A stretch of 64,000 bases of DNA from Branchiostoma lanceolatum. Its lineage: Eukaryota; Chordata; Leptocardii; Amphioxiformes; Branchiostomatidae. Below are positions 24,047 to 64,000 of this stretch, one piece after another (the first letter of the stretch is position 1; each line of letters starts with the position of its first letter). The notes beneath the pieces are model-generated. The model was not told the origin of the DNA. It worked only from the letters and a program-made list of their open reading frames with translations, and ran no database searches. The stretch covers positions 3,915,001-3,979,000 of the forward strand of contig NC_089735.1 of assembly GCF_035083965.1 (NCBI RefSeq), in the 5' to 3' direction. A program made the translations under genes and the position numbers.

Positions 24047-24123
24047 AGTGGTAATCAGTTAATGCGGCAGGCAGGCTGGACCCAACACCTCCGACTCGAA
24101 CACGCAAACTCCTCGGCCCGACA

Positions 24124-27100: not shown

Positions 27101-28449
27101 ACGTTTGTACGCTTGAGCGCTAAAACGTCCTAAATTCGCCACTAAATACAAAACTACGGAACGACCAAGAAGTTTATTAGATACGCAATATTTTTCACAG
27201 CACCGACAAAACCTCTCTGCTTCATTTGTTCCCTTTAGAAGAAGAAAGAAGGCGCCACGTGCACAGTGAAACACCGGATCGCCAGCTTCAAACAGATCCC
27301 AGAAGACTTGACCGTGGACGGGTGGAGGGTGGTGGACTTGACGAAGAAACTCTCAAGGTATGTAGCAGAGTTAGTTTTATTTCCAGCCAAATCCGTAAAT
27401 AACTATTGTTGTACGCCGGAAACTCCAAGTAAAACCTGTTCCGATTTTAGAGCAAAAAAAAACATGACTAAGTAGAAAGCCGACAAAACGCCTGAAAACA
27501 CGTCAAAAACCAGTCGGAACCCCTCCTCCGTTTGGAGAGTAAGCAAAACTAGCCCTTCTCTCTCGTATGGTTGATGATACATCGTTTCTGTAATCGTTGA
27601 TGCATAGTTTTTGCAATAGGACGGTTATGTAGTTTCTGTAATAGCACGGTTTAATATGTATTTTCATCTTTCAATCAACACAGATGGGTGCGACAGAACG
27701 TCTCCGCAGACACCATTGAGATCCAGATCACGTCAAAACCGGAGAGACGTCGTCCCCGAGACCTGAGCACCGACGCCTCTGATTGGCTGATGTTGGTGAA
27801 CAACATGTCTCCGGTTCGGGAGGAAGCGGAAACGGCGTTAGACGAGAGAAATCCGGAGGACGAGGAAAGCGAATTCTATACGGATGAAGGTACGGACGAA
27901 CCTAACACAGAATCTCGACAGAAGAGAAGGGTCGAAATCAAACTGTCTGAAGATGTGAGTCTGGTGGTGTTCTCTCAAGACCAAAAGGCGGACTTGCTTC
28001 GAGATTCCCTGAAAGCCAAGCGCGCACAGCACGACGTCAGACACGACCACCCGACGGAAACCCGAATCGCGCGCTCCAACAGAAGACGCCAGAAGAAGTC
28101 GAAGAAAGGAAAGACGGACAGTTCTAAGAAAGACGACACTCCCTGCAAGAAAGTAGAGTTCTGGGTGGATTTTGATCACATTGGTTGGGGCACGTGGATC
28201 ATATATCCGAAGAGGTTCAACGCGTTTCGTTGCGAGGGCGTGTGTCCGACCCCCGTAGACCAACTCTACCACCCCACTAACCACGCCGTCATGACCAGCA
28301 TCCTGAACTTGCACAAGCCGGGAAAGGCGCCCATGCCCTGCTGTATCCCCACGAAGTTAAAAGCTTTGAGTATGTTATACCTGGAGCACGGGGAGGTCGT
28401 TCTTAGACACCACGAAGATATGATCGTAGATGAATGTGGTTGTCAATAG
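24124..28449 (+). CDS. nodal: Nodal, TGF-beta superfamily ligand
   Basis: Exons 24124-24451, 26291-26457, 27239-27357, 27684-28449; 1380 nt, 459 aa. Residues 1-20 form a signal peptide ([19 protein letters not shown]). The propeptide ends in a very basic stretch with a furin-type site RSNR (335-338). The mature domain holds seven cysteines from C359 ([10 protein letters not shown]) to the final CGCQ. Nodal-type signatures are [27 protein letters not shown] and [10 protein letters not shown] followed by DMIVDECGC; these separate it from BMP, GDF8/11 and Lefty. As family knowledge: the ligand is secreted, acts through activin-type receptors with an EGF-CFC co-receptor, and directs mesendoderm and left-right patterning. 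The first intron begins AAAG/GTCCGT, a weak donor, chosen because only it keeps frame with exon 2. The 1.8-kb first intron is where vertebrate Nodal genes carry autoregulatory elements; I could not establish one here. Confidence 0.95.
25731..25853. mobile_element. CTCCAAG-type MITE in nodal intron 1
   Basis: Starts TCTCCAAGTAAAGGTTCGGA, ends TCTGCTTGGAGA. Inner phrases 'aaacctgacaaaatagaaagc' are shared with the copy in nodal intron 3. Confidence 0.7.
27421..27539. mobile_element. CTCCAAG-type MITE in nodal intron 3
   Basis: Starts AACTCCAAGTAAAACCTG, ends CCTCCGTTTGGAGA. Shares the 'agtagaaagccgacaaaac' interior with the copy at 25731-25853. Confidence 0.65.
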
Positions 28450-30068: not shown

Positions 30069-32688
<2,620 letters not shown>

Positions 32689-40901: not shown

Positions 40902-43900
40902 TTCAAATAGTCTTGTGTTTAAGCACAAAATATTATTGCTTGAAAAAAGTTAACAAACCACGACATAAATCATTCTATAAGCATGTACTACCTATTTCAA
41001 AAGGTTTAATCATTCAAATACTAAGTATGGTGCTAATAATATTCGAAAAAATATAGACAGCAGCTACTCTTTTGTATATCGGTATATAATGATCATAATA
41101 TAGATTATGATAGTGATAATGATGATAACAATAATAGTAATAATGATGATGATGATGATGATATAATGATAATTTTTATTTTTATCATATTTTGATAATG
41201 ATAATTTTGATAATGATAATGATAACAGCGCTGTCAAGCTAACTTGAATATATCGTTGCCCAGACATGACGACGTTAGACCGTATCCTGGTGCGTCACAG
41301 CCCGGAGACAGACGTGCATCACGTGGTGGTGGAGGCGGGGATGGTGGCGGAGGACTTCGCGCGGGAACTCCAGCAGGTGTACGGGCTGGCCGTGCCTGCG
41401 TTCGGAAACTTCGCCGGGCACACTCTGGGCGGGCTGATCAGCACCGGCGGACACGGGTCCGGATATGCCAAAAAGATCCTGGTAAAGGAATATCTGTATC
41501 TATATAGTTGGTACAACCGCCATTCGGCGTAATACACCACCCAAAAAGATCTTGATAAGGAATATCTGTATCTGTATCTATATAGTCGGTATAACCACCA
41601 TTAGGCGTAATACACCATCCAAAAAGATCTTGGTAAAAAATATCTGTATCTGTATACGTTCGGCGTAACACACCAGCCAAAAAGATCTTGGTAAGGAATA
41701 TCTGTATCTGTATCTGTATCTGTTGTTGTATCTGTATCTATATAGTCGGTATAACCGCCATTCTGCGTAGCACACCAGCCTCGCAGGTACGCGGCCGAAC
41801 TACTTAACTAATGTTGTCTCTCCTAGGCGGACTCTGTGGTGGAGTTACACATGATAATAGAGGGAGGCATCCAAGTGAAGATCCGCAGGTCCAACATTGC
41901 CAACCAGGAGATTGACACCCCTTTCGACGACATCCGCGACAAAGTCCGGACCGCCAACGTGCGCAGCGAGCCCATCGTCATCCTCAGTACCGAAGTGTTC
42001 CGAGCAGTCGCCGTGGGGCTCGGGTCACTGGGGGTCATCTACTCCCTCACCATCCGATGCGAGCCTTCGTTCAACATCGAGGAGTTCCGAACCCCGATCG
42101 AGATCTCGTGGCCCGGCGAGCGCCTGTCGGGCTGCTTCGCCTTCCCGTCGGGGTTCGTCGACATGTACACGGTGGACCACGAGTTCAGCACGTTCGTGTT
42201 GCACCCGATTCCCGACCCGACACGTGGCCAGGTGGAGCCTGGATACGCCGTCATCCACGGTATCTACTTCGGGGGCAAGAGGACAGGCGACCCGCCGGCT
42301 AGACACAACTCCTGCCCCTGCTGTCCCGGGAGCAGAGGACTGCTTGGCTGCCGCATCTTGCAGGTCAGTTCGTCCCACAGATACCAACTTTTAGATCATT
42401 GTCCAGTTACTCCAGCACCATATATATATCAAAGAATGTTTGCACATGAGAACAAGCAATATATAAGTATACGACACGTTGAGTTTCAATATGTTGCTCT
42501 ATCCCATATGGTTGTATGTGAACAAACTCATTTGTAAGCACTTGTTTATTTGTATGCATGCATGTATGTATGTATGTATAGATGTATAGATGTAGTAGAC
42601 CTTTAATACGAAAGTCGCTGTACTTTAGTTGTGTCAATAAAGACTGCTGTATAAAGTCTCTGGAATGAAGAACTAACGATTCTCGAACCTCATCTGTTCT
42701 CAAAACTTGTTTTTCCCAGAACGACTGCATGGCCACCGCCTTGCTGTGCGGGACGTCCTGTTGTGCGCGTCAGGTTCCCATGGTAACCAAAAATGGCCTC
42801 CGGATGCTGTCACAGCGTAGCAGCTACGTTCATCAGTGGCATAATGTCTTACAGCTCACCCCAGATGTCAAGTAAGGTTATTCAAACTTTTCCGTAAAAC
42901 ATCTGACAACGTCAGCGTATTCTTTAAGAAAAGCTAGTAGATTTACCAACTGCTTTGATTTGCAATAGCTTAGTCTCAGATTAATGCCTCATTCTCGACC
43001 GTAAAGGGCCCTGACGTCACAGAAAGGACTCCTAGCCATACTAGGCAATTGGAAGTTCTTTCTGTGACACCAAGACCTAATATTGTAGCTTTGTCCCACC
43101 AAAGAGTATACAGTAGATAATTGATCTTTAAAATGAATACATAGATGTTTTCAGAAAATACCAGATTTCTACTTGTATGATAAAGGAAATTTCATTTCAC
43201 TGGCTCACAGGAAACAGGATGGACGCTTGGATTCACATAGAAATATCTCCATATCATCATAATATCGTTGATGTATCATCTTATGTTATGATGTATTCCA
43301 TCTAGTGTGGTCACCATGGAATGGTTTGTGGCTCTGGACGAACTCGAGGCAGCGGTTGCTGACGTCATCAGCATGGCGGTGACGTATGGAACGAAGTGTC
43401 AGCACTTCTCCCTGCTGCCCATTGCATGCCGGGTACTGGAAGCAGACGACTTTTACCTCAGCCCCACCTGTCAGAGCCGCGTGGCAGAGGAGTCCATCAC
43501 CCACTACGGCTGCATTGAGGTACAGAGAAGGTGTTGTTGCGACTTTTTTTTTTACCTCCGAGAGAACGGAGGTATTGTTCTCGGTTTGTTTGTTTGTTTT
43601 TGTCTTGTTGTGTGTTCAGGTTTGTTTCCGCTGGCCCGGGTACAAGGTTGGCCCGGGGCCGAAGTCGTTTCAGCTGATAGGCAGGACGTGGAGTCGCCCT
43701 GGACTAGAATGTACGAGGATGGCATGTGTGCGGGAGTGAAATCGCATAGGCAGGAATATGAACTGACAGAATTAGCGAGAAATTGCCAATGATAAATAAA
43801 ACAAGAAATCTAGGAATACACAAGAACAAACGCGAGCCCTAGCAAAGCAGCTCATTGCATTGCTACTAGCTACTTGAAAAAAGCATAATGCTTCACCTCA

Positions 43901-44368
43901 TCACTCAATTGAGGATGACTGCTCTACCTTACCTTTTCGATACTGAGAGATTTCATGTCCCCTAATGTTGCATGTCACTTCCAGGTACCGTTCCTTCCCG
44001 GTGAGTACGGCGCTGCTCAGTTCCACAAGGTCATCGACGAGCTCCTGTTCGAGAAGTACCAGGCGCGACCGCACTGGGGCGCTTCTCACCTCCTCACCCA
44101 ACCGCGCGTGCGCAAGAGCTACCCCGAGCTGGACAAGTGGCTCCAAGTCTACCGCCTCTTCAACAAGAACGGCACGTTTGAAAACACCTTCACAGAGAGG
44201 TGTGGCTTCGACGACATAGACGCGAGGAAGAAAACCCAGTCCATCTCGCGAACGAGGTCATTCAGGAGAAACAGACGGGGGTTCGTGGACCAGCGGCCCG
44301 ACTCCAGCATATTTGCTACAATAGACGAAGTAGACGACCCTATTATAATGTCGGAGTCGTCTGTGTAG
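38504..44368 (+). CDS. FAD-linked lactone-oxidase-like protein (GULO/ALO type)
   Basis: Seven exons: 38504-38699, 40540-40698, 41264-41481, 41827-42363, 42720-42871, 43306-43519, 43985-44368; 1860 nt, 619 aa, in frame. The flavin-binding half has VRAVGRGHARS with His105 at the place of the covalent flavin histidine (GSGHS in relatives), and GHTLGGLISTGGHGSG (170-185). Downstream are ADSVVELHMI and GSLGVIYSLTIRCEP. The C-terminal oxidase domain ends near ARPHWGASH (519-527), matching the HW[GA]K signature of gulono- and arabinono-lactone oxidases. Family reaction: O2-dependent oxidation of an aldonolactone; the true substrate here is unknown. Oddities are the cysteine-rich N-terminus MGNTCTVIDCC..CC..C (possible Gly2 myristoylation plus palmitoylation), the Ser of GHS replaced by Ala, and about 180 residues more than GULO, including a basic/acidic C-terminal tail. 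Confidence 0.85.
39396..39479 (+). mobile_element. tRNA-like SINE head with poly-T
   Basis: A-box-like CATCTGGCAACGCG and B-box GGGTTCGTGTCC about 40 bases apart, ending in TTTTTTTTT (a Pol III stop). No full cloverleaf. It precedes a strongly A+T-rich stretch (39465-39620). In intron 1 of the oxidase gene. Confidence 0.45.
40844..40896. repeat. (AC)n microsatellite
   Basis: Pure AC run in intron 2 of the oxidase gene. An (ATG/ATA)-rich tract follows at 41086-41225. Confidence 0.97.
41469..41790. repeat. Duplicated exon end and donor in oxidase gene intron 3
   Basis: The exon 3 end CCAAAAAGATCCTG/GTAAAG and following intron (GGAATATCTGTATC...) recur near 41541, 41620 and 41675. The donor is lost in the first extra copy (GATAAG) and kept in the next two (GGTAAA, GGTAAG). 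CTGTAT hexamers have expanded in the last unit. Confidence 0.85.
42418..42545. repeat. Dispersed repeat, also at 26571-26690 in opposite orientation
   Basis: 'aatatgttgctctatcccatatgg' with 'acaagcaatatataagtatac' here matches, in reverse complement, nodal intron 2 sequence at 26571-26690. Confidence 0.75.
43840..43935 (+). mobile_element. 5'-truncated SINE tail
   Basis: Shares TAGCTACTTGAAAAAGCATA and the CTCAATTGAGGATG palindrome with the tail of the SINE at 9775-10125. In oxidase intron 6. Confidence 0.65.
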
Positions 44369-46407: not shown

Positions 46408-49400
46408 ATGCTGTGGCTCGTCGTGTCTCTCGTGTCTGTCCTGACACTCAAAGGTTCCATCTTTGTTTTCATTGCTAAGACATATCTTTTATCAACTAAC
46501 GAAAGGGTATATCACCCCGCAAGGGGCGGTATAACCCCGACGGTGCACGTCGCACGTAAACACGTCGCACGTAAGCACGTCGACTACCTACCTACCTACC
46601 TACCTATATCTTGAATTGCATACTGCTACTTACTGAGCATCTCAATGGACTGCGGCACGTTGACGACCTCGCTGCGACCTAAATTGGATTTCTGTTACCC
46701 TTGACTTTATAATGGAGATGCCAGGCAAAATGTACAAATATAACTAAAAAGACAACGAAACACACAAAGCGTAAAAAAACTTTTATCGAGGAAATTCGTT
46801 GCAGCGAGGTCGCCAACGTATCGCACGTCCAGTGAGATACCTTCTTACATTCGCCATACTGTTACATGTACGGTTTTTTGTGTGCCATGATCCTATCATT
46901 GCTTTTATCGCTACGATTGCTTTGTTTGTAGCTTGTGGTTGACACCACGAACTGTTCATTTACGCAGAGGAATTTGGGAGGGTGTACTAGGATGACGAAG
47001 TCTCAACATGGTGTGGTGTAATGTGATGCAAAATGCAAGGCTTTACAGCATTATTGTGGTTTTGTGAAGCAAATAGCGTTTCCACCAACACATGTCTGAT
47101 CATACTTTATTCACTGTAACAGCTTGTGCCGATTCGTCACTGGTGCCACCAAGATATGGCATGGTATATTATGGGAAGGTTCACAACACGGAACCTAAAG
47201 GTATCTTCTATCATTATTTGCTTTTCGCACAAAATTTGCTCAATTTTATGACTGTCGCGTTGTGTAGAACACTTTCTGGTAAGAAGAAGACCTTAGTTGC
47301 GCGACAGTTGTAACTGGTACAATGTAAGGCAACCTACGTACATGACAGTTGAACTACTGCTAATTGCAAATAAGTTTAATAAAGAACTAATCTAATCTAT
47401 CATATGATGTCACGTGTCAAAATATATCGTTTTGATAGATAAGAATGAATAATCAAATTTGGTGCATGGGCTTGCAGTTTTTTCTAGCATTACCAAAAAT
47501 ATTGTTGTCACTACGGGCAGATAATACGTAAGGAAAAAATGCACGTCACACGTTCATATCTACAATATGTAAGGAGGTAATGGCGACTAATAGGAACTCT
47601 TGTTCATGAAATTGTACCGTCTCTTGCGTCTCACAGAAAATACACCGCTTCAGAAGGCCCAGGAGAGACAGTGGGGTGAGTACGTTCTATTTTACAATGT
47701 CAATAAGTGGCGTAGCGTGTATGAAATTTCATGGCGATGCTCTGTATAATTCTTAAAAATCCTACCCTATGGAAAGTAAATATTGTAAAAGTAAGTAAAA
47801 GTACATATCGTGAGACGTGGTTTTACGAGTCTTATTCACCTACGATAAAACAGTGATCTTGCCTAAGTAATTGAGAGGCTATTGGGTTTGAGAAGACTTT
47901 ATCAAATTGCTATTGTTGCAATATTAATACATGTACCGAATTAAAAGTTTTCCTTCTGTAATATAGGGGTTCAATCCATTGGGTTCGTATATAGGTAGTA
48001 TAATTATAGCCACTATTTTCCTTGTATTACTTATAGTGGCCTGTGGAGACGGGACTTACATCCAATCTGAGTACTGGTGTGACGGACAATTCTACCATTG
48101 TGCCAACTTTGCCGATGAACTAAGCTGTAGTACTAGTAAGTTTGTTTGTTTGTTTATTTCACCAGGAGAAACATATGGCCTATTGACGCTTTTCAATGTG
48201 CCTGGGGGGAAACCCCCAAACAAAAGTCATTCACAAAAAAGAGAAATAAAGTCTACCTTTTTACAAAATACACCTCACATTATTATAGATTCATGTAAGT
48301 TCGCCTGCTTTGTTTAGTAAGTAGAGTTTTAAGATTTGTTTTATGTTTCTATTTGTAGTTTGTAGTTGACCGTACGAAAATCACTGTACTTTTTGTTGTG
48401 TAAAAAAAAAAAAACTACAATTCTGTTTTGTTTATCTTATATCTTAAGCTCATAAGTATGCCGTAAGTTCAAGTGAATGTTTTCTGACAAATGCCCTAAT
48501 CGATTCACCAGCAAATTTGTCAATCCGGCATAGATCGTCATATCTGTTTCTACGACACTCTTCAGTCAACCAGGAATGCACTGCTCAATTCAAATACTGA
48601 CGTCTGACGGTTGATTAATGATAGGGTCACATTTTAAATCCGGGGCCCGGTCGGGCAGTCGTTGGGAACGAAGAGTACGATATAAAAGACGACCAAAACA
48701 CAAAACGCTCCAATGATTATTCAAGAGCAAAGCTTGTACATATTCAATGATGAACACTTGAATTTTTCGTTTCCGCAAACAGCCCGGCCGGGCCCCGGTT
48801 GGGAAATGTGACCCTAGCATAAGATGGCTGACTCTAGGACTAAATGTCTACATTCTATGCCTGGCCTTGAGAAAGGCCATTTACCAGCTGTTACACAGTT
48901 TTGAGTGTCGCACGTGTCTGTGTGATACCGGATGGTTGTTCTGTTTGAAAAGCTGACGCTAATATTTGTTTGTGACGTCAGCCAGTACAGGTGATATGGT
49001 GGCGTGTGGCGATGGGAACTATGTGCAGGCTAGCCAATGGTGCGACGGGCAATACTATCACTGCCCCAACTTTGCTGACGAACTCAGCTGCAGTAAGTTT
49101 AGTAATGCCATAAGTTATCGGCTATCAAACTGCACAACCAATCTAAACCACGTGTTGAATAAACGTATACACACTTTACAAGTAATGTTTAGTCTCTTAC
49201 TTATTATTGTACATACTTGAAACCAACGTAGTTTTGTTGTAGATACTGGTGTAGTCGTGCCGTGCAAGATTCTTGCCGTCTGACAATGCTTTGTAAATAT
49301 GTATATTATGCTGTATGTTATGTTATGTTATGTTATGTTATGTTATGTTATGTTATGTTATGTTATGTTATATTATATTATGTTATGTGGAATAAAGTCA

Positions 49401-52400
49401 TTTAACGAAAAAATACAATAAATGATATTATACAAATACGAAGTTTACCAAGTTTATTGCAAATACATGCCCGAGGTCTAATTGCAAGAACAAGCAGCAC
49501 ATATAATAATGATAAATACAATTTTGATATTATGGGCTACATACAATATTATGCTACATTCTAAAATCTACATGGTGCTAGTTTTTTGGGGGTTTGACTC
49601 CCTTTGATATTGAATGAATGAAGACCTTTATTGCACGAAGTACAGGTCACAACAGGACAAAACATGTTGAACAGATACAGTTTACAAATACAAAATAAAA
49701 CTAAAAATTACTAGATAACTCCTTGTCAGTTGTAGAGATAAAAGAACAGATATGTTTCTCGATGGAAGGTTTGTCCAGTTTCATTAGGGAAATGAATTTT
49801 TCTACAGTATGAAATAGCGAAATAGGTTTTGTACAAGCCTATTCAGTCCATTTTCTCTTTCTATTATTCAAAAGGTAACACCGGAACTGGAACGGGTACC
49901 GGTACAGGTACGGGCACGGGCACAGGCACAACGGGTTCCTCCGGCCAGTGCGGGCAGCGGAAAGATCTTTCGAGCGGAAAGATCCTGGGTGGCGCCCAGG
50001 CGACCGCGAACTCCTGGCCGTGGCAGGTCAGTCTCAGGCTCAGTCAACTGTTAAAGGAAAGCTACACAAAAAATTGAAAATTCTTCTATGCTATGCTTAA
50101 TATATTCCAAAGTCAAATTCTTACTTCAAGTTGTTTCACATAAGTCCGTCATAGTTCTGGGATTTTCCACAGTTTGCAACTTATGCCGTGCTGACGTCTT
50201 CTCACCTGATAATTGAATTATATGACGTTAGTGTTTCAAATTGTTCACCTGATGATTGTATTATATGACGTCAGTGTTCTAAAATTTAATCATCGGGTGA
50301 AAAATTTGAAACACTCCTTTAAGAGCCCGTTATTGAATGATGCATTCATGTTCTTTTATGTTCTTGTAAACGTGATTAATTAATCAGAATTTGTATTGAT
50401 AAGCATTATCGCATATTTTTCATATTGTAACAGAAAAGGAAAATGTGGACATTGTCTGAGATGCCAATTCAAACACGACAAAATTGGCATCACCATGCAT
50501 GTTGTACAACGACAAGCAAGAAATGTTAAGTTTTGAGAGTTCTAATAAACTGTCTGAAAAAAGGTCAGTCTCAGACTCATCCTGGCCAACGGGATCCACT
50601 TCTGCGGCGGGTCGCTCATCTCAGACCAGTGGGTCCTCACCGCGGCACATTGTATACACGAGTAAGTCTGATCTTGATTCCATAGGGTCATGGAAAATGT
50701 ACCATCCATGTGTCTGCTTCAAGGCTTATGTACCATAAAGGCACGTTTTATACACCAGTAATTTGATGTCTGATTCTAATTGCATAGGGTCCTGGAAAAT
50801 GTGCCATCTTCTTTTACTGTGTCTGCTTCAAGGCTTATGTACCATAAAGGCACGTTACATTCGTCATGATTTTTTTGAATTAGTATTTTCTTGTTTTGTT
50901 GTTCTTTTTTTCATTCACAAAATATCAAACGTACAAAAGAACGGGCCAAAGTGGCGAAGTTTTATTCATCATTCGCATGACAGAAACGACATTCTGCAAG
51001 GATCTAAATTTGAAACTTGTCAGTCAAAAAAAGACAGCTGAATTTTGTACAACACAAGAACGCCTCCCAATTTCTATCGTAAACATCGTACGACGGCACC
51101 GTGACGACGGATGTGATCGGGCCCTAACTCCATCTTTACGTCTAGGTACGGGTCTCCATCCTACTGGAAGATCAAGCTCGGCCTCCATCAGGTGGACGGT
51201 AGCGCCGAGCAGGAGAGGAGCGTCGTCAGGGTGATCAAGCACGAGCAGTACCGCCACACACCCCACCCTTATAACGACATCGCCCTGATGAAGCTGGACC
51301 GGCCCGTCACCATGTCACAGAAGGTCAGCTCCATCTGTCTGCCCACCAGTATGACTCCAGACAACACCTACTGCTATGTAACCGGCTGGGGCGCGACTGG
51401 ATACGACTTTCAAGGTGACTTGTTTGTTTGGATACTAGTAGACTTGTAGAAGGTTCTGTTTTCGGTTTTGCTATGGTAGAGCGGCTGTGGATGCAAGGCC
51501 AAGGGAGTTTGGCAGTAGGAAACCTAGTTATGTTCTTTGAATAAAGATAGTGACAAGTTGTAAACAGTTTAATTATGATTCTGTCATTATTGAAGAAGTT
51601 CAGTAAAACACATGTTAATTTTTCAAATTGTTCAGGTACAGGTACAGGTCCGGACCTGTACCTAAACCTCTGTACCGGTACCTGATGTTACGTTTAGGTA
51701 CACAGCACTACTGTGGATGCTTGTGTGTTTGATGTAAACAACAGATGTTGTGGATTGGTGTTCATGATATTTGGTAGGTGGGCAGGTGTCGGCAAGTCGA
51801 AACATGAGTTTGAGAATGGGCTTCCTGGTGGTTGACTATGGTACTGCAGCGGAGTTTGTAATCCAAATAAATCTATCTAATAGAAACGAAAATGATGAAT
51901 GCAAAAAAGGGCTTTTTGTGCACTTTCGGGCGTTACCGGGCTTAACCATTTTTTGCGCATGACTGGGATCCCGACTCATTTTAACTCGGACTTAAACACG
52001 GCCGGGGCCCGGTAACAAATAGACGCCGTGAGCTAATCGTGCGAACACCGAGAAGTATACCCCCCCCCCCCCGACCTAAGATTTATGCACTCCGAACATC
52101 AACTACAGTATAACATATTCTCCTTCTATACACCATGGTTCTATGTTTCTACAGGCACTGAAATAATGGCGACGGCATTGAAGCAAGCCCGAATTCCGAT
52201 CAAGACCAACAGCTACTGCAGCTCAGCGTGGCAGGGCAGCTACGACTCCTATAACATGGTCTGCGCCGGCTACGACTCTCTGTCTCAGGGAGGAGATTCA
52301 TGTGTCGTAAGTTATTGTTCAAGTACAATCCATCATGTAAAAGGGACACATGAAAGGCCAAGCATGTTCGAATAGATGACATCTGCGTGCGCAACTATTT

Positions 52401-53097
52401 TTGCTCCACCACATTTGACATTTTACTAGTTCGTAGGGCCAGCAGCAGTATTCATTCTCTACATTCCGTTGTAAAGCCCCAGTCTTCGGTTTGATTTAGA
52501 ATATAGTTACGATATATATGATGGATAAACTCCTTTCCAATAGCAATGTCATTTTACATGCGAAGTATCTCACAAAGTTGAAATAGTTTTTACCACAAGG
52601 ATTCAAATAAAAGAAACACTGTTAGTAACATTACTCTTGCTGTCTACATGTATTGCTGTATTTTGTCATACCACACGCAAGGAAACAACTACTCGAGGCA
52701 AGCAACTGTGACAGATTTTAGATTTCGTATAAATAATTGTCACTTAGATGTTAGTTTGGTTTGTGTTAAACGACCTGTATCTAGCCCCTCGGGGCACGAA
52801 CATACAATAAAGGTCTTCAATCATAAATCTATCGAGTTGCTTGTAACTGTTAATACCATAAGGCTACCTGCATGTCTAACCTTCATCGACGCACATGTTT
52901 GAATATGTTACAATTCTGATTTACAGGGAGACTCTGGTGGTCCTCTGGCGTGTCCATCTGCTGACCAGTCCAGCTGGGAAGTGACTGGAGTGGTCAGTTG
53001 GGGAGAGCAGCCGTGTGGCGCCGACTACACCCCGACTCTCTACACCAGGGTCTACAACTTCCTCGGCTGGATCAACAACAAAATGGCCACTAACTAG
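46408..53097 (+). CDS. Secreted trypsin-like serine protease with two LDLa-like modules
   Basis: Nine exons: 46408-46453, 47637-47675, 48037-48135, 48982-49092, 49875-50026, 50564-50661, 51146-51414, 52155-52306, 52927-53097; 1137 nt, 378 aa. Order: signal peptide ([16 protein letters not shown]), LDLa-like module 1 (C31-C59), module 2 (C70-C98), a (Thr-Gly)8 linker, then an S1A domain. The activation cleavage is predicted at K134/I135 (SGK/ILGG). The triad is His178 (LTAAHC), Asp226 (NDIALM) and Ser325 (GDSGGP). Asp319, six residues before the Ser, fixes trypsin-like cleavage after Lys or Arg. Cys119 before the cleavage site could tether the propart. Each LDLa-like module is one exon with phase 1 borders, typical of shuffled modules. 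Both modules lack two of the six usual cysteines (see findings). Likely an extracellular digestive or immune protease; the target is unknown. Confidence 0.93.
46650..46855. mobile_element. Dispersed element with GCGACCTCGCTGCGACC / GCAGCGAGGTCGCCAA ends
   Basis: Inverted end motifs and an interior 'actaaaaagacaacgaaac' shared with 45775-45905, 56445-56560 and 59385-59575. Non-coding. In protease intron 1. Confidence 0.65.
48617..48822. mobile_element. MITE family C copy 2
   Basis: ATAGGGTCACATTTTAAATC ... GGGAAATGTGACCCTA, with 'ccggggcccggtcggg' and its complement inside each end. Confidence 0.8.
49313..49388. repeat. (TGTTA)n microsatellite
   Basis: About 13 pentamers in protease intron 4. 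Confidence 0.95.
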
Positions 53098-53139
53098 TCT
53101 GTTTTATTTCTGTTCTCACCTTCTGTACATGGTATGAAG

Positions 53140-53274
53140 TAATCTTCAAGCAGATCTAATTGTTGCGAAGACCGTATCCAACTGGCAGAAGAAGCTTGTA
53201 AACTTAGGTTGCCATACAAGCTTCTTCTGACAGTTGGATAGGTCTTCGCAGCCATTAGATCTGCTTGGAGATTA
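53140..53274. mobile_element. Palindromic MITE in protease 3' region
   Basis: TAATCTTCAAGCAGATCTAA ... TTAGATCTGCTTGGAGATTA; the long arms (AAGCTTCTTCTGACAGTTGG and complement) pair almost to the centre. Starts 42 bp after the stop and ends before the AATAAA at 53289-53294. Confidence 0.85.
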
Positions 53275-53288
53275 GGTATGAAGGTCTG

Positions 53289-53294
53289 AATAAA
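53289..53294 (+). promoter_or_regulatory. Candidate protease polyadenylation signal
   Basis: AATAAA 192 bp after the stop, just beyond the palindrome. Confidence 0.5.
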
Positions 53295-54670
53295 TGAAAC
53301 ACAATATAAGTGTTCTTGTCAAACGCGTTTCTTTTTATTGTTATCTTTTTTTATTGCTAGGGTAGACAAGAAACCTCTAAGGTTTTTCGATGGTTTTAAT
53401 TTCCCCCTAACTGCAATTATTTACGTATGGAAATAACAATTACTGTTGATTATGATATACATAACGTTACATAGGTAAATAAGATAACAAATGGAAATCA
53501 TTATAAATATACAAGAGAATAAGGAAAACCTACGGTCTAACTAACTAATGAAATCAAATGGCATATCGAATTTGACAGAAATCAAGGAAAATCAAATACA
53601 CAATTCAAAACTTGTACGTTTTAATCATAAATACAAAGTAGGAGAAATGAATTAATCAATTGGTCCCCAAATACACGTAGGTCTATAAAGGTCTGGGAAA
53701 AGACCACCTGTGTCCACAAAAAGTGTTGAAAAAAATACTTGATAGTGTTAGCAAATACTTGCGTGTACTCCCGGACATGAGTACAAAGGTGAACAAGAGG
53801 ACACAGTAGAACACGAACCACTCTTAAGTAATTATGGTGTTTGTCTTGTGGGCAAAGTTGTTTGGTACCCTTTTTACCAGATATAACAATTTCTTTAAAA
53901 CCTGTTTCCATTTCATAGTCGTTTATGATAACACCAGGAAGTCACCCAAGGCAGTTGCAATACCCATTGGTCACCACTCAGTAGCCAATCAACCTTTATC
54001 GTAGGGATATATTCGATCGGGTTACTTAGTGTTATATTCCCGTAGATCAAACATTAGTCTACACCAATTGGTCAGTTTATTCAAGTGGACAAATTGGCAT
54101 CGACATAACAAAGCTGGCGGCTTAGTTGCAGTTCTACCCTATTCCGCTGAATAACAGTGGCATCCTTGTATCGCGGCGAATTAAAAAAGTGACTTGAAGG
54201 GAATGACTTTTACAAACGGGAAGTCTTAGACTTATAATAATAGTGTTCTAACTTGCCAAACGTGTGATGCTGTTGCTTTTTCGGAAGTGTCAAAATGACG
54301 TTAAACATCGTCCAACTACACATGGTGTTGAACCAATGCACCACTACGGTAAATGTGTGCTGACCTAGACTGTCACGGATATTTTTCCTTCCTCTTAGGA
54401 AATCCTTCAGTCACCATTAGTCTTAAGAAGTATTTCAAATCCTGATGTACTATGTGTCTCCTTCCCGATGTCATTTTGATTTGGCCTACCCAAGGAGGCT
54501 CTACAAAACCTAATTGTTGCAACGGTGGGGCTGAAGTTCACAAAGCTGCTGTTATCGGGTTAGAGGATAGAGGACGCTAAAACACAACCGTGAAAAAAGC
54601 TGAATTAATGATGTACACGGACGTGTGTGTTGTGTCTGGGGCGGGGATTGCGTAACAGCAAAACAAAAAT

Positions 54671-54718
<48 letters not shown>

Positions 54719-55087
54719 ACACACACGAAACAGTACCTCTATGTTTCATGGAGGTAATGATGACTCAAAAGTGAACAATATATTGTTATAAGAGCATCTA
54801 GCATGTGTTCACCCATGTAGCATATAGTATATAGCCTCTATGAATGACAATACCAAAATGATGATTGAAACGACTTAAAAGTGTGCACGGAAACGTAGTC
54901 AGCACACTATTCCCAGATTGCTCAAACACTACGATGTCATCACCTCTTTCGAAAAAGTTAATTACAACTGACATCAATAAGACAAAGAAGTTGTAGGGGG
55001 GGGGGGTAGGCATAAGATGATGTGATGACATGCAACGTTTAACATGACAACTCCTTGCCATATCGTCGTGAAATCCAAGAAGATTTC
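53295..55087. other. Convergent intergenic region
   Basis: The 3' ends of the protease (+) and receptor (-) genes face each other. No supported gene. It holds an (AC)n tract at 54672-54728 and several short minus ORFs without motifs. The minus ORF 55169-54798 overlaps the last receptor exon in another frame. Confidence 0.5.
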
Positions 55088-58000
55088 TTAAACTTTCTTG
55101 AAAGTGAGCTTCGACGGAAGAGCCAGACTGGTTGACCGACGTTCGATAACACGTTTCAGTTTCTTCCATTCCCGAAAGTCAGAATCAAAGACTTTTCTGT
55201 GTTTGCTTTCTTTTTCGACGATCCTGGCATTGGAGAAATCAGCAACGATGACCGTCAACTGCGGCTCCTGTAACAAGGTATGAAAAATGTATCAGATAAC
55301 GTGTATTGTTTGGTTGGTATGTGTTACACATTTCAGGGCAGCGCAATCAAAAATCAGCAAAACCTCAAGTACTTCACATGCCTATACACTATGTCATACC
55401 AAGGAAATTATATAGGATGTCCTTGGTCATACTGGACAAAGAACTTATTTGCAAGAGAAATAAAAGAAGCCATCTAAATCAGTGCTTTACAACCATCCCT
55501 AAACAGAGACGGGGGTTGCCATAGACTTTCTGTAACTTATGATCAACTGCTCACAGGGTCAGATGTTATATCTGCATAACGTGACCCCACCGAAGGAGTG
55601 GATTGCTCGCTCCTTGATAATGACTGGATTTGGTCAGTCGAATATTTGAGTATTACTAAGTTTTTGTGATGGAAATTACACTTCGACTTTGATACAGAAT
55701 GACTTCAACCAAATTGAACACAGATGGACTTTCAAGTTAAGCCCCTGTCACACTTGTGCGTATAGCCGTTGCGTGTGAGTTGCGCATTTACATTTTTTCC
55801 ATACGCCGCCGTGCGCACAATACGCATCTCACATGCATCTCGATAGATTTGTGTAAGTTTAATGTTCGCCGGCATACGCACAATATGGCCCAGTGGGTAT
55901 GATAGTTTGGGGTATTAACGAATTACGATAATACGCAAGTTGTTCGTTATGAATAGTTTTCCATTATTTTGATAAATATGTGAGGCACATTTAACATGTG
56001 AATAACGAAATGTGAGTCACACATTCGTCAAAATAATCGAAAAAGTCCACAACTATTGTGCGTACAGCTGCGTATTGCATTTTGTCCATACGCAACTCAC
56101 ACGCAACGTGTATACGCTCAAGTGTGACAGGGCCCTAACTTTGCCGCCAGTCTATCACGTGTGAATGTAGTGCGACCGGCACTGCTTTTCGAACTTTAGA
56201 TAGTTTTAACTGACCTTCACGACTAAGAGAGTCTCCAGTGACATTCTGCCAAGGACGATGTCGTTTCGGTGCAAGAAGTTCAAGGCCTTTATCACATCCA
56301 AGTTGATGGTTAGGAGGTCTTCTGATGTCAATTCCGTCGCCACCTCTCTCAAAGTGTAGTGATGACGATTGGTGTGTAGAACCCTGGGGAGTACAGTGAG
56401 GTCAGATTCAATACAGGTTCCTAACACCCTCTTTCATTGGCCCCGCGGCACGTTTGCGACCTCGCTGCGACCGAGCGATTTGACACCGCACTAAACGAAT
56501 GTCATCGATGTGATTTGTTGTCTTTTTAGTCATGCTATTAATAGCACTTAATGGCGGACCGTAGCGACTGGAGGAAGAGGGTTGACTTAGTCCGGGCAAC
56601 CCGCCAGACATGATGATGACGAATTATGAAATCAGGGTCGCACAAATGTAATTTTGGTCGCTGTACGGTCGCTCGGCGATCGCCGTTCAGCGGAAGGGGG
56701 CCTTGTTAATCTTGCTTTCCCGTTGACCATCAATGCTATATTGAGCAGGTTTACAGTTTATAATCCATTCATGTGACTTAGACATTCCTATGTACATGTT
56801 GTAATACCAGTAACGCTAAGTATGTATCAGTAAAACTAAATACAGTCTTTCAACTGTGATTGCAAGGGTGGCATATTTTACGTCATTACACCAGAATCTC
56901 CTCGAAACAGATGTTATTTTGTGTGTATAAATTGATAGATAATAAAGATGGAAATGTTTACCACTTGTAATCATCTTTGTCTGCAATTGCGCACTGGCTA
57001 ATGACATTCTGGTGACTCCCCGCGATACCAATTCTCCTCAATACGTTCATTTCAGTCGTAATGTCTGCCTCATCCAAAGCGTTACCCTACAGATGTAGAG
57101 GAAGGCATACTGTAAATGCAGAAATGTTCGCGGTGGCTTTATGTTCGCGGTTATCGCGGTGAACTTAAACCTATCGCGAAAAGTGTTTCCATTATGTGAC
57201 TGTAGCGCTACTATTGTTTCAAACGCGAACTTAAACGACCGCGAACACTCCATTTTCTGTCTACCGCGAAATTAAATCCCCGCTAACATTTCTGTATTTA
57301 CAGTACTAGGTACAAATCATCATCATAGATACCCCCAAATAGCCCATAACAATAAGAAAAATGACACAAACATGTTAAATGCGCTTTCAATTGTACTTAA
57401 TCTAGTTATACTTATCTAGTTGGAATGAACTTCATCACAGTACTAAGCGAAGATCTTTTTACCTATCTCTTACCTCTTTGTTGAATTGCAGCAATACTTT
57501 TGTGACATGGATAGGCTCAACATCGTTTTCGAGGCACTGCAAATACAGCTGCATCTGTTCAGCGTTTTCTCTCTTTGCAACGACTGAAAGAGACAATGGA
57601 ACCAACCCTACATTAAAAGATACACAGAGAATAGAGATGTCTGTTTTAAATTGATGAATAGTAGAAAAACACACATTCTCTTCTGTTTCTAATCTATCGT
57701 TGAGTACCATTTAACATACTGCAATAACTAGTCAGTCAGTCGTCATAATCATAATCCGTACGAAACACCAATTATTGTATGATACACAGAATGGTCCGAG
57801 TGTATTATGAACTTTTTACTTCAATAGATCATTAACATATTTCAGTGTTGATTTAAAAGAAACCTAGTACTTTAGAATATTTCATGGACATTGTAAGTAA
57901 GTTATACTTGTGTAGAATATCTGTAATTGGATGTAAGTTTTTGATGATCAACGATTCGTAAAACGGTGCACAATTTTTTTAGGAGATAAACACCATTATT

Positions 58001-61000
58001 GTTCTTCATATTTAATACATACCGCCCAGCTCATGACCAGCTAGACAAGAGGAAGCTCCATGCAGACGCCACCTGAGCTGGTCCCCAGACGTGTACGAGT
58101 TCCCTTCCTCATCTTTCTTGGCATACACCTCTCTCCTCGTGAACCAACTCGGTGTGATCGTCGCCAGTTGAATCAGCGGATTCAGTCCCGAGGTAAGGGG
58201 AACAACGAAAAGCACCACCCACGGCACTAACACGACAACAGTTTCATCTCCCGTGGTACAAAACATCCCAACAGAAGCAACAAACAGCCAGCTTATGGAA
58301 TTTGTAGCAATTATCAGCTTCATTGTCCACTGACTCTCCGGGTGCTTTACACATTTTTTTGTATTTTTTGTTCTATAAAATCCCTCTGCAAAGCAGCATA
58401 ATCCCCATATGGCTATTGATGCCACTACCATGATGGTTGGTAGAGCAACTAGCAGCACAAACCAGTGTCTCCACCGCCCCTGTTTTCGAACGATGTCAAC
58501 AAATGGCGAACAGGCAGCAGACGTTGCTTCGTCTTTTACCTCATCGAGTGGAAAACGCATGGGGAGGATAGTACATAGGAGCGCAAACAGCCAACATAAC
58601 GTCATCATAATCACATTACAGATACATTTCCACCGAGTTGTTATCAGTCGGGATACCACGTACATGTCTGAAAAGAGTGCTACGAGTATCGTAAGGGAAG
58701 CCATTTTGCTAAACACAATCAGCCCTCCTGCTATGCTACATGCTATATGAGAGCGCCATCTTTGATCTTCGAGAAAATACCTATCCTTGAAATAAAGATT
58801 CGCCGATGAAATGATTATTAAGTATATCCCCGACAGACCGTCGGCTATTGCGAGGTTACAGCAGAAAAACGTCGATGACTGAGTTGATTTTTGTACAATA
58901 TAGTGAATCAAGGTGACGGTGTTGCCCATAATTGACACTATTGCCAAGACCCAGACTGTAATTTCCAGGCTCTGTGTCTTGATTAGATGCTCACATGAGG
59001 ATATGTGGTCGTGCCCAGCAAAGCACGCGTTCGTGTGAGGCGCCAAACAGCACAATTTGTACTGATTAGTTTTCCTGCAGGGAGAGAGAAGAGCCAGTCA
59101 GACGCGTGCCGGCCGTGTGCTCTCTGCCCGGCACTTTGGCGCGTTCTAATTACGGGAACGGCCGTGAAACTACGCGAACCACAAAATTACTGTCACCGGA
59201 TCCGTTAACGACACGTGCCCACTTCTGATACAAATCTACCGCAATGGTATTGATTTTTCTAAATGCCTGACGACAGATTACGGTTTTCCCAATCTCTCAT
59301 TCGGAACACATTCATCACACTTATCTTACTGTACATTAAACACTGTTATCGGGTATATCTCACTGTAGCTGCGGCACCGTGGGGTTGTGTTACCCTTGAC
59401 TTTATAATAAGAATATGCTGAAAAACGCACAAGGTTTTTTTTTACTAAAAAGACAACAATACGCGCAAAGCGTAAAAAGATCAGTTTCTTATCGATGAAA
59501 TTCGTTGAGCGCTCAGTCTAAGCGAGGTCGCCAAATTGCCGCGGGTTCAGTGATTTACCCGCTTTAGCACCAATAAGGCATGCTCCTTTGCCTTCTAATC
59601 ATTACAAGTAGATGTAACGTTATATTCTACCGAATACTTACAAGTCTCGCAGATTGAGTAGACTCAAGAAGACATTGACATCTACGTCATGGACATTGTT
59701 CCCTGTCAAGTCACTAGGTAAGAAAGAACAGACCCAGTCAGTCTGTCGCATGTCTGTACAATGATCTGCAGACGATTGTAAGATACTACTCATCTATCTT
59801 GCGCAATATATGAAGCATGCCACTCGGAAGAAAAATACTGTGAAATGGGTATCCACAAATCACTTACAGCACTTCCAGGTTGTCCAACCCATCAAAAGTT
59901 CCAGCCGTCAGCTTTGAAATTAGGTTCAAACTGATGTTTCTGAGGAAGACAACAATATAACAATAGTTTGATAGCAATATAGATGATCTCCAAAGGCCTA
60001 CATATGTTTTGTCCTACGTATACGGGTACTTGGTATGGAAGGATAAGTTGAAACATTATCTAGTACATTTATGTCGTGCAAAACAGCCAATGTGTATAGA
60101 TATATACATAAGTTTAAGTTAAGTTTAAATGTACTCACAGATTTCGTAACTTGAAGAGGCTAGAAAAGGCACCAGCCGGTATACCTGTAAGGGAATTATC
60201 ACTGATGTCCCTGGAACGAGAAAACGTAAATTTGTCACTCAAATTGATAGGTCCTCGATCGGTGTTAATCTGTTTTTCAAATTCAATAGCACAGCAGAAC
60301 ACTGTAGTTTACAGGTACCGTCAATGCTTAGATAAGGACTAGATTTTGCTTCCTTGTTAGATTCATGGTATGGTAAAAGACATTCCCTCAACAGAGACGG
60401 GGGCTGATACCTACTACCGGGCACCCTTGACCCGTTGCTGACGTCACACTTCCGCCCAGGTCAAGTGACGTAGGCTTCGGGTCAAATCAACATGACAAGG
60501 ACCAGAGGCTGTGGTCAAACACGGCTGTTGCTATGTGCTTCGCTTCGTATACGGATAAAGCGTGTAAATTATAGGGGTGGGTACCGGTACAGAAAATTCA
60601 GGTCCGGTCCAGGTCCAGGTCCAGAGGGTGTACTTGTTATGACCGGTTATGTGTGACCGCCTGCTGGTAGCCTGGTGAATTTTCTAATCGGTCCATAGGC
60701 CGGTCTACTGATTTTTTTCTGGACCGTTTTTTTTGGACCGGTCCATATGAAAATACCGGTTTTGTACCGGTACACGGTACCGGTACCCACCCCTAGTGTA
60801 AATCTATCAATATGCAATCAAAAGATAATGTTACTGTAAAAATAGATGGCGACAGCGGGGTACCAAAGTTGCACTGTCAAAGTATGCTAGGTTACATGTA
60901 ACAACTACAGCAAGCATCGATTAGCCGTGAACTACAAGGGTATCTAGCGCCAGAAGTCAATGAGCCGGTATTGGCAAGCAGATGGCTCGTGCAATAGAGG

Positions 61001-64000
61001 ATTTCCCGTCGGTTGAATGTTATTGATCTTTTTTTGGCAACACTAAATGCTTACAGTGTAGTCAGCAGCCCCCAAGTTCTCAGCGAAGCTTTGGTTAAGT
61101 TGAGTCTGTTTCCTGTGAAATATCTGAAAATAGAATCATTATAGTTTGACTGAATAGCAATTTTTTTTATTGACAACCGCATATTTAACAAGAGCCGACG
61201 TGTCAATGACCGACTGTCATCATCTTCAGGACAATTATGTCACGTTCTCTTTGTACTGCAGCTAGGTGTCACTACTAACAATGCGGTCCCAAACGTTACG
61301 TTTTGTCACATACATATATCATGGTTTGAGTTTGCAACTTGGAGCCACATGATTGTCTTCCAAGTTTGGCAAGAACTATCTTCTGCTGATGCACATTATG
61401 TCAGGTATCTATCTATTTCATCCCGACAATGCTTGATAGGAAGATTGATCACTTGATTCTTGATTCTGACAATCTATTCATCTTTCAATCAGTCCAATAC
61501 AATTAGATGGCATATTTTTCATATACAAAAACTAAAATCATTTCTTTCCATTTCCCTGTTTCTTGTATACTTACAGTTCACGACTTGTTCTTGGTACCTT
61601 TGGCGGAATAGAGGTCAGGCCTTTGCTCAAACAGGAGACGACTCCATTCACGCACTTACATGAAGATGGGCAAGTTGAGGCTGGAAATGTAGTAAATTAC
61701 AGTTAGATAGAATCTTGTCCATTGGAAGGCCAAGGTCTAGAATTCGTACCGATAGTTTATGTCGCAATGTAAGCCTTTTAGTAGACATATAATGTATGCA
61801 GATATAGAGTGTTACTCAGTGTGACTTATATCAAGTATACAATTGTTTTAGATGCTCTTAGTCAATTCTACACTTTTGGTACACTGTTAGCTTTTTAAGT
61901 CAATATCATTCACACATACCTTATCCAATAACTTAATTATCAATTTAACAGCAATATCAAGCAAAAAGAATTTAACGCTATTCTAGATCCTGCATGTGTG
62001 TGTAACTTTTGTTGCGAAAAACAGAGCAGTGCTTCAATTCTACTCACCATCTACATCCATGGAGCAGAGAACCAGGTTGGGTCTCCTAAACTGACATTCA
62101 GTTTTTGGAACTATCCACCTGTCACCATTCATGTCATATCGCCGCTCTAATACGCCACATGTGCTTGTTTCATCATATTTGATATCCATGTATACTCGGG
62201 CGTACGGATGCACTGGCCACATATGTTCAAGATAGTCCTGAACAAGAAGAACATCAGCAGACGAGTTGACGGCTGCAACAGTCGAGTCTTCTCTGTGGCA
62301 CAGACGGATGCTGTCCCGGGCTGGGTTGGTACTTCGGGCAGGAAGGGTGTAGGTCCGGAGACAAGACTTTCCAACCATTGTCCAACCCCTGTTGCAGCCT
62401 TGGTACAGAAAAAAATATTAGAATGTAAATGGTTTTCACAAGTTGTATCAATTTGAAGACCTAAATGCAATGTTTATTTCTTATGCATTTAGACAAACCC
62501 TGTCTGTATAAGACACAATATCTGTTCCCGCATCTACAAAGAAGCGAGAAGAAGCTTAAGTTGACTCTACCGGATAGCTTAGTACAACACTCTTGCCTAC
62601 TATGTATGTTTAACTCGTATATTGTTGTTTTACCTAGCCACTCGAAGCATGAATGTACAGTAAAGGATTTTCATTATCTTAAGATGCGTTCACGTGATAC
62701 ATTCACCGTTTTTACCTTATGTGTATAAGCTTCACTCCACGACCACAAAGTCAGTACTCAACGAATACAATACTGTAACCACATATTGCATGATTGTGAT
62801 GAGTATCTTAAATAACAAAGAGTAACAAGGAGTCACATAGTAGCCGACGTTTCGGTGACCGTCTGTCATCTTCGTCATGGCAATAATGAATGTTTCACTT
62901 TGCTCTGTAGCTAGATGTCCAAATATTCCAATAAAGTATCCAGAGTAGCTGCTAACGATGCGGTTTCAAACGTACAGTGTATAGTTTTATGTATCAAATA
63001 TTTACATTTGGGACCGCAAGTCATTCACAAACCTGATGAGTTTTTTTTGTTTCCATATTTTAAAAAAAATATCGATGATTTACAGCACTACCGGGTTATT
63101 TATCAGATATTTCTATCACCTAGAAGATACCGACAAAACTACCTCGGGCCTTGGCCTTGCAAATGTATGACCTGGTCGCCTCGGGATAGTTACAGGGCAC
63201 GGTGTACCAGTTCGTCTCGGGTGAATCTGCTGTTTTGCCCGCCAGCATCAGAGCACAACTCTCCGTGTTCTGTCCGGCCGGCAGAGGCGCCCTCCCTCTC
63301 CAATATGTGAATCTTACATCAGATGATGAGGATAATCAAACGTTATCATAGAGACAAATTTCCCAACCGGGGCCCGGCCGGGATGTTGAATGAAATTGCA
63401 TGTCAAGAATTACAAATTATGCCCGTGACTATTTCTATTTTTCAAACATTTTCTGTGTTTTCTTGTCTCTTATATCATTCATTTCGTTCCCGCAAACTTC
63501 CTGGCCGGGTGCCGGTTTGGAAATGTGACCCTAACATTATCATGAAGAAGAATCATGCAAAAAAAGAAACAAGGAAATATATTTGAAAACTCAAGAGCTC
63601 AATAATCGTTCGCCAATGGGCGAACAGTAGGCTCCATGCATTCGGTCAATGCATGTAGCTGAATACGATGCTATATGTAAAAGCTTTGATTGCTCAGGTA
63701 CCTTTCAATGAAAGACACTGGCTTGATTTCAGATAATGATAGTGAAATAATAAGCGCGGTTTGAATATAGAATACGATAGGAACTCGCACTGATGTTTAC
63801 TGGGATAGTGCCACCACTTTTGTATCTCACAAACCATTAGTGTGTAATGGCCACCGCCATGATTAAGTTGGCGATGTCTGGCTATAACGTTTTGCGTTAA
63901 CATGTTGGTTAATGGCCCTTACCGCACTTCGCTGCCATCCACCCAGGCGTATCTCGCATCCTGGCCTGTAGTCATGAGACCTATAAACGCCGTGATGGAA
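55088..64000 (-). CDS. C-type lectin/LRR/7TM receptor fused to a pseudokinase domain (3' part)
   Basis: Minus-strand exons, 5' to 3': 64000-63923 (cut by window edge), 63312-63143, 62398-62048, 61680-61575, 61123-61055, 60210-60139, 59939-59868, 59713-59642, 59074-58023, 57583-57474, 57086-56962, 56383-56215, 55267-55088 (TAA); 874 aa in one frame. Order: C-type lectin fold (WVDGSEV .. WYTVPCNYP .. SYICKAKA), a second lectin-like module with NGDRWIVPKTEC, an LRR N-cap (CPSSCKCVNGVVSC), four LRR exons of 69-72 nt, a hinge QYKLCCLAPHTNAC, then seven helices in one exon. The 7TM part is like relaxin/glycoprotein-hormone receptors (LAIADGLSGIYLI in helix 2) but has SDMY for DRY and NPLIQ for NPxxY. 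About 30 residues after helix 7 comes a kinase-like domain: VVAK (lysine), TTEMNVL (helix C Glu), IVLGRMSLETLLV where IVHRDLKxxN is expected, and ADFS for DFG. It is probably a catalytically dead kinase on the inner membrane face. Confidence 0.88.
55737..56138. mobile_element. 402-bp MITE with TTAA-type ends
   Basis: TTAAGCCCCTGTCACACTTG ... CAAGTGTGACAGGGCCCTAA, with inner arms GCGTGTGAGTTGCG and CGCAACTCACACGC. In the last intron of the receptor gene. Ends suggest a TTAA target, as for piggyBac-like elements (inference). Confidence 0.8.
56445..56560. mobile_element. Dispersed GCGACCTCGCTGCGACC element (fragment)
   Basis: Same end and interior ('gttgtctttttagtcatg') as the copies at 45775, 46650 and 59385. 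Confidence 0.6.
57108..57305. mobile_element. MITE family A copy 5
   Basis: TACTGTAAATGCAGAAATGT ... ACATTTCTGTATTTACAGTA, full length with both ends. Inserted only 22 bp upstream (on the minus strand) of exon 57086-56962. Confidence 0.88.
59385..59575. mobile_element. Dispersed GCGACCTCGCTGCGACC element
   Basis: Contains 'actaaaaagacaacaatac' and ends with CTAAGCGAGGTCGCCAAATT, matching 46650-46855. In the intron before the 7TM exon. Confidence 0.6.
60573..60795. mobile_element. Inverted-repeat element rich in GGTACCGGTA
   Basis: AGGGGTGGGTACCGGTA ... TACCGGTACCCACCCCT, with 'ggtccaggtcc' and 'ggaccggtcc' inside. A related short 'caggtacaggtacaggtccgg' lies near 51635-51690. Confidence 0.8.
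63345..63542. mobile_element. MITE family C copy 3
   Basis: TTTCCCAACCGGGGCCCGG near the left and GCCGGTTTGGAAATGTGACC near the right. Lies in the intron between the two lectin exons, about 30 bp upstream of exon 63312-63143 on the minus strand. Confidence 0.75.

Follow-up and report, generated by a model that had tools for sequence, protein, structure and literature searches.

GPCR-tyrosine kinase fusions were recorded in choanoflagellates and sponges by a 2025 survey, whose available text reports them as absent from other metazoans (PMC12716839), and Van den Hoogen et al. found that GPCR-TKLs occur in oomycetes and amoebozoans, according to the part of that paper available (PMC5784254). In the accessible portions of the two papers, the seven-helix (7TM) domains of GPCR-TKL/K proteins cluster with no other GPCRs, and those of the choanoflagellate GPCR-TKs are given as lacking a metazoan homologue (PMC12716839, PMC5784254). 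In amphioxus, Lectin C-type domains have been noted in the N-termini of GPCRs, as in the gene described here, whereas the lectin domains of that inventory belong to Adhesion GPCRs and its available main text has no word starting with kinase (PMC2246102). Views on lancelet domain architectures differ: in the excerpts available, Banyai and Patthy ascribed the differences in lancelets to annotation errors (PMC4967905), whereas Huang et al. took the opposite view, namely that exon shuffling is rapid in lancelets (PMC4284660).

Here we analyse one gene in a 64-kb stretch of lancelet DNA (the window), in which C-type-lectin-type and LRR modules, an LGR-like 7TM domain and a broken kinase piece appear, from the sequence, to be combined, a combination unexpected in higher animals. 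That a 7TM domain followed by a kinase is non-standard in animals, as the original prediction held, agrees with the survey to the extent of its available text (PMC12716839). Our preferred reading, to which we give slightly better than an even chance, is that a single gene encodes an LGR-type surface receptor with, at its C-terminal end, a truncated and catalytically dead domain derived from a kinase, which would serve as a ligand-controlled scaffold.

Exon chain and ectodomain

The sequence from 54000 to 64000 was read on the minus strand, and open frames of at least 30 codons were listed for 50000-64000. Thirteen minus-strand exons, from 63999 to 55088, join within this window as a single frame of 874 residues followed by a TAA at 55088; the frame is open at its 5' end, and the 5' end of the receptor gene lies beyond the window. 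GT-AG boundaries are present at 12/12 introns of the receptor model and the phases match at 12/12, in agreement with the predicted thirteen exons in one unbroken frame, and the reading-frame observation, from the lectin to the kinase-like exons, holds at the DNA level. A tblastn search of the window with the model (E up to 1) returned 13 rows, all of them its own exons, and hence no paralogue. The 7TM exon gave 0 pattern matches in viral contigs and 20 in genome contigs (a set with no eukaryotic genomes as such), 0 of which were confirmed, and Rfam gave 0 matches at the gathering score.

The visible part of exon 1 (63923-63999) encodes the middle of a C-type lectin domain and runs off the window, and exon 2 (63143-63312), which has weak splice sites, encodes the C-terminal part of the same domain. 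Lectin_C matched residues 4-78 at 2e-6, with 29.0 bits in the full model and 27.1 bits for exons 1-2 alone (cut-off 22.6). Exon 3 (62048-62398, phase 1-1) is regarded as a C-type-lectin-like module by eye, because it has six cysteines and the usual motif spacing. It was not matched by Lectin_C, the C-type-lectin-like profile UL45 reached only 0.091, under its cut-off, and a PDB search at E up to 10 gave 4 matches, none of them a lectin, the best (0.77) being an immunity protein. The lectin modules had been predicted in the plural; one is supported by Pfam, as a partial domain cut by the window end, but exon 3 has no profile or PDB lectin match to place beside it. The motifs EPN/QPD and WND form the sugar sites of C-type lectins; neither was seen by eye in either module, and therefore calcium-dependent sugar binding is not indicated.

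Exon 4 (61575-61680) encodes an LRRNT that scored 9.6e-6 and 25.5 bits, just below its cut-off of 25.8. It is followed by four phase 2-2 exons with one LRR unit each: exon 5 (61055-61123) of 69 bases, and exons 6 (60139-60210), 7 (59868-59939) and 8 (59642-59713) of 72 bases, the usual LGR pattern. The predicted LRRs were confirmed by LRR_8 (9.4e-15, 54.6 bits against a cut-off of 27), which matched in two stretches, so that the LRR ectodomain by which an LGR is recognized is present. Pfam found no LDLa in the part of the receptor that lies inside the window (874 residues), beyond which the gene extends at its 5' end.

Several other features were observed in the window, and its further genes are of kinds that fit an animal. 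Two large tandem arrays lie at 3377-4013 (141-base unit, 4.4 copies, 89% matches) and at 12869-13516 (19-base unit, 32.6 copies, 66% matches). A TGF-beta family ligand on the plus strand (27655-28446) has a mature TGF_beta domain at 1.6e-30 and a C-terminal motif that we take to be Nodal-like; a frame upstream of it (24055-24522, plus strand) gave a sub-threshold propeptide match (0.32). A tubulin gene, presumably of alpha type, occupies 30072-31244 on the minus strand (Tubulin_C 1.6e-53, Tubulin 1.7e-40), with a second stretch at 31472-31741 on the same strand recognized only by eye. Plus-strand exons matching FAD_binding_4 (41248-41529, 3.2e-6) and ALO (43919-44365, 5.7e-10) perhaps belong to one L-gulonolactone-oxidase-like gene; the frame between them (41827-42534) had no Pfam match. 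Trypsin exons were found at 50558-53094 on the plus strand (2.8e-10, 8.1e-15 and 2.1e-12), and upstream of them, at 47967-49217 on the same strand, are two LDLa-like exons scoring below the cut-off (0.073 and 0.1).

Seven-helix domain and kinase-like tail

Exon 9 (58023-59074) encodes an LGR-type hinge, seven helices and the start of the cytoplasmic tail, as judged by PDB matches and hydropathy. Hydropathy gave seven hydrophobic stretches (12 overlapping rows, merged by hand), and the best PDB match was the relaxin receptor RXFP1 (3.1e-19, with the hinge in the match; identity 68 of 304 aligned residues), followed by the family-1 GPCR 8w1z, which carries no receptor name (1.6e-15), and by LHCGR, TSHR, FSHR and LGR4. 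With the LH, TSH and FSH receptors close behind RXFP1, the relaxin-receptor/LGR affinity that had been predicted was supported. Pfam 7tm_1 was not reported for either the full model or the 7TM exon, and the LGR-type identity thus rests on the PDB sequence matches; the seven helices themselves stood on hydropathy and RXFP1 but not on Pfam. Judged from these matches, the seven-helix domain is of LGR-type class A, with an LGR hinge.

The class A switches of this domain are altered in comparison with RXFP1: DMY stands against EKY, SWLF against CWIP and NPLIQ against NPILY, and the consensus E/DRY, CWxP and NPxxY of a G-protein-coupling class A GPCR is absent. RXFP1 couples to Gs and has Lys at residue 3.50, so the loss of Arg at 3.50 alone is not decisive against G-protein coupling. 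Taken together, the altered switches weaken the case for G-protein coupling, which would be less likely but still possible, and make it more plausible that the tail acts in place of such coupling, as had been suggested for this gene.

The tail is encoded by four exons, which on alignment correspond to a kinase-like N-lobe from beta2 to beta3, with no Gly loop seen (exon 10, 57474-57583), alphaC to the hinge (exon 11, 56962-57086), alphaD-alphaE and the catalytic loop (exon 12, 56215-56383), and the DFG region with a short C terminus, lacking a recognisable C-lobe, before the TAA (exon 13, 55088-55267). The kinase had been placed about 30 residues past helix 7, which proved too close: depending on where helix 7 is taken to end, about 46-53 residues separate it from the first kinase exon and about 62-69 from the onset of profile similarity. 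A beta1 strand starting in exon 9, with ELG before the junction, was considered and rejected, as it would comprise just three residues and the profiles give no support. The tail was also considered as a repeat; this was rejected, as the two terminal-inverted-repeat elements found sit in introns 10 and 12, outside the exons. These elements are MITE-like, at 57108-57305 in intron 10 (terminal inverted repeats of 35 nt at 83%) and at 55734-56141 in intron 12 (59 nt at 86%).

Exons 10-13 encode 194 residues, on which Pkinase scored 1.8e-6 and 28.0 bits, under its cut-off of 31.7, and PK_Tyr_Ser-Thr scored 3.8e-6 and 26.8 bits, above its cut-off of 23.1; within the full 874 residues, the latter gave 22.7 bits, just under the same cut-off. 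Coverage was partial (18-155 of 263 for Pkinase; about 18-160 of 260 for both profiles). Exons 12-13 alone keep a kinase match (1.4e-4), whereas Pfam gave none when exons 10-11 were taken with just the end of exon 9; nor was there one for a reversed copy (n=1) or a shuffled copy (n=1) of the tail. NCBIfam returned two bacterial kinases only, far under their cut-offs (MAD6, 5e-6 and 25.3 bits against 460; PrkT, 14.0 bits), and the weak PDB matches of the tail (PAK5, 0.011; FGFR1, about 0.03; VRK3, 0.13) did not single out a kinase family. On the evidence of the profiles, the similarity of the tail to protein kinases is real, and with PK_Tyr_Ser-Thr above its cut-off the 194-residue segment shows the kinase-profile similarity that a pseudokinase should have. 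The original proposal of a Pfam search of the joined protein was thus answered in part, with Lectin_C and LRR_8 found, 7tm_1 unreported and Pkinase below its cut-off (28.0 versus 31.7).

The residue assignments were read from alignments of low score, the FGFR1 stretches reaching 10.6 and 4.4 bits (i-Evalues 3.5 and 280; 17/60 and 14/65 residues identical) and PAK5 reaching 18.0 bits (0.018). The two alignments agree at the catalytic loop and DFG positions, and in both, weak as they are, HRD is replaced by LGR and DFG by DFS. In the FGFR1 alignment, which is weak and alone covers the beta3 Lys, this Lys aligns to Gln and the catalytic Asn to Thr, while the alphaC Glu is kept; because the FGFR1 and PAK5 alignments are weak, another register at the beta3 Lys is possible. 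As far as these alignments go, the Gly loop, beta3 Lys, HRD Asp, Asn, DFG and complete C-lobe of an active kinase were not found. The fragment does end soon past the DFG position, as it would if the gene encoded a working GPCR-kinase, active or nucleotide-binding, with C-lobe exons that lie downstream or are alternatively spliced, and 7TM-kinase fusions are known from choanoflagellates and sponges in the survey text available (PMC12716839). However, the catalytic Asp and Asn are replaced in exons 10-12, as is the beta3 Lys in the FGFR1 alignment, and APE-, DxWSxG- and CWxxDPxxRP-like motifs were absent from the minus strand at 50-58 kb, in a search that recovered exon 12 with a control pattern and that could overlook a degenerate C-lobe; moreover, 50.5-53.1 kb is occupied by the trypsin-like gene on the opposite strand. 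We therefore regard a working kinase as very improbable, and the tail is probably a truncated, inactive segment of pseudokinase type. The kinase-like domain of the original prediction accordingly survives as a fragment (Pkinase, 18-155 of 263) without catalytic residues. Of the two roles suggested for it, a scaffold would fit such a dead fragment, whereas a nucleotide sensor is weakened because no Gly loop was seen and the beta3 Lys is aligned to Gln in the FGFR1 alignment, the only one that covers it.

The same departures from consensus, at DRY, CWxP and NPxxY and at HRD, Lys and the Gly loop, would also be expected if the receptor were out of use and its 7TM switches and kinase motifs were being lost together. 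Splice sites, ranked with a generic matrix against the 4170 GTs and 3630 AGs of the minus strand, are weak at exons 2 and 11, in keeping with such decay: among the acceptors, exon 2 ranks lowest (53% of AGs score as well), and among the donors, exon 11 (best 8.0%) and exon 2 (best 6.4%) do. However, GT-AG is kept at 12/12 junctions, and 874 codons are free of stops and frameshifts, for which the neutral probability at saturation is about 2e-24, a figure to be read with the knowledge that the exons had been picked for openness and that recent, stop-free decay still fits. We consider a decaying gene improbable, and return to the preferred reading of a receptor that continues into a dead kinase-derived domain.

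One gene or two neighbours

Whether the 7TM and kinase-like exons belong to one gene is decided at intron 9 (57584-58022, 439 bases). At the junction 58023/57583, the donor is in the best 1.9% of the 4170 GTs and the acceptor in the best 2.1% of the 3630 AGs, which are sites of ordinary strength. The phase match is weak evidence for a fusion, because 48 of 160 GT/AG pairs around the junction are also in phase; it would arise by chance in roughly one pair of sites in three, as it could between two neighbours merged on paper only. Such neighbours would be a lectin-LRR-LGR receptor ending at a TAA at 58012 and a short kinase-derived gene or fragment starting from about 57710. The 7TM frame, if unspliced, stops at a TAA at 58014-58012, three codons beyond the donor, with ATTAAA at 58016, which together would make a plausible natural gene end, and the frame of exon 10 is open backward to an in-frame ATG at 57710. 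The glycoprotein hormone receptor genes, moreover, end with their 7TM exon. A weaker poly(A)-signal variant, AGTAAA, lies in intron 9 at 57820; between 53 and 58 kb, canonical AATAAA is confined to the sequence past the kinase-like stop and is absent from intron 9, the first past that stop being at 54076-54081 on the minus strand, about 1 kb away.

Lancelet gene models themselves call for caution at such a junction. According to the available text of Banyai and Patthy, they are mispredicted at a high rate, with false fusions among the examples, and the truncation of domains, counted also at both ends, is a warning sign of prediction error (PMC4967905). On the other side, a good acceptor (best 2.1%) is present at the matching phase, a separate kinase-derived product would start within the N-lobe, with no recognisable beta1 or Gly loop, and no other kinase-like frame was seen by eye in the 439-base gap between the 7TM exon and exon 10. 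A codon-usage measure trained on exons 1-9 could not tell exons 10-13 apart from open stretches taken at random (joint p 0.36) and is uninformative, because the 7TM exon itself scored p 0.91. The neutral probability at saturation that 193 codons of the same base composition stay open is 6e-6, which is a guide and not a test, because the exons were picked for being open. Weighing these points, we consider two separate genes rather unlikely but a serious alternative, and a fusion of the 7TM and kinase-like parts in a single transcript reasonably likely from the sequence.

If exons 9 and 10 are indeed spliced together in RNA, the preferred reading of one receptor gene suggests the following mechanism. 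The ectodomain, with its C-type lectin and lectin-like modules, LRRNT, short LRR block and RXFP1-like hinge, would recognise a ligand, whether protein, peptide or glycan, and the 7TM domain would pass, some 46-69 residues beyond helix 7, into the truncated, catalytically dead kinase-derived domain. Helix movement driven by the ligand may alter the exposure of this pseudokinase, which, once exposed, could hold or allosterically regulate a partner, such as a kinase or an adaptor, at the membrane. Given the altered DRY, CWxP and NPxxY switches, G-protein coupling would be weakened or absent in this proposal.

Comparison with known receptors

If the junction is real, the 7TM-kinase fusion, reported among holozoans for choanoflagellates and sponges only in the available text of the survey (PMC12716839), also arose in a bilaterian, and the bilaterian fusion pairs an LGR-type 7TM domain with a dead-looking kinase. 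It would then offer a testable example of GPCR signalling that may run through a pseudokinase scaffold instead of a G protein. More tentatively, and with less than even confidence, both engines may be off, meaning the 7TM domain's G-protein switches as well as kinase catalysis, in which case a relaxin-receptor-like GPCR would signal purely as a ligand-controlled membrane scaffold and would be, going by the accessible portion of PMC12716839, the first animal GPCR-kinase-fold fusion outside sponges. The kinase queries of that survey, as described in the text available, could miss a dead fragment. If the junction is false, the locus is a further case of the false domain combinations in lancelet gene models against which PMC4967905 warns in its available part. 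Within the open-licence literature, no description of an LGR with a kinase-like tail was present among the matches listed or in the text available, and no paper was found that brings together GPCR, pseudokinase and amphioxus.

The gene resembles the LGRs (RXFP1 and the glycoprotein hormone receptors) in its LRRNT, its phase 2 LRR exons of 69-72 bases, its RXFP1-like hinge and its class A 7TM domain in one large exon. Unlike them, it has a C-type lectin domain, no visible LDLa and few LRRs, altered DRY, CWxP and NPxxY motifs, and a kinase-like tail. With the GRL101-type receptors (Lymnaea, arthropod LGR5 and ambulacrarian), it shares LRRs followed by an LGR-like 7TM domain and a large modular ectodomain, whereas GRL101 carries LDLa repeats, none of which were seen here, and a kinase-like tail is unmentioned in the available text (PMC8286064). 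The available text of a starfish paper likewise has no word starting with kinase or lectin (PMC6267866). The placement of a kinase-related domain C-terminal to the 7TM domain is shared with the GPCR-TK and GPCR-TKL/K proteins of choanoflagellates and sponges and with the GPCR-TKL proteins of oomycetes and amoebozoans; the lancelet gene differs from these fusions in that its 7TM domain is of LGR type and its kinase part is truncated and dead-looking.
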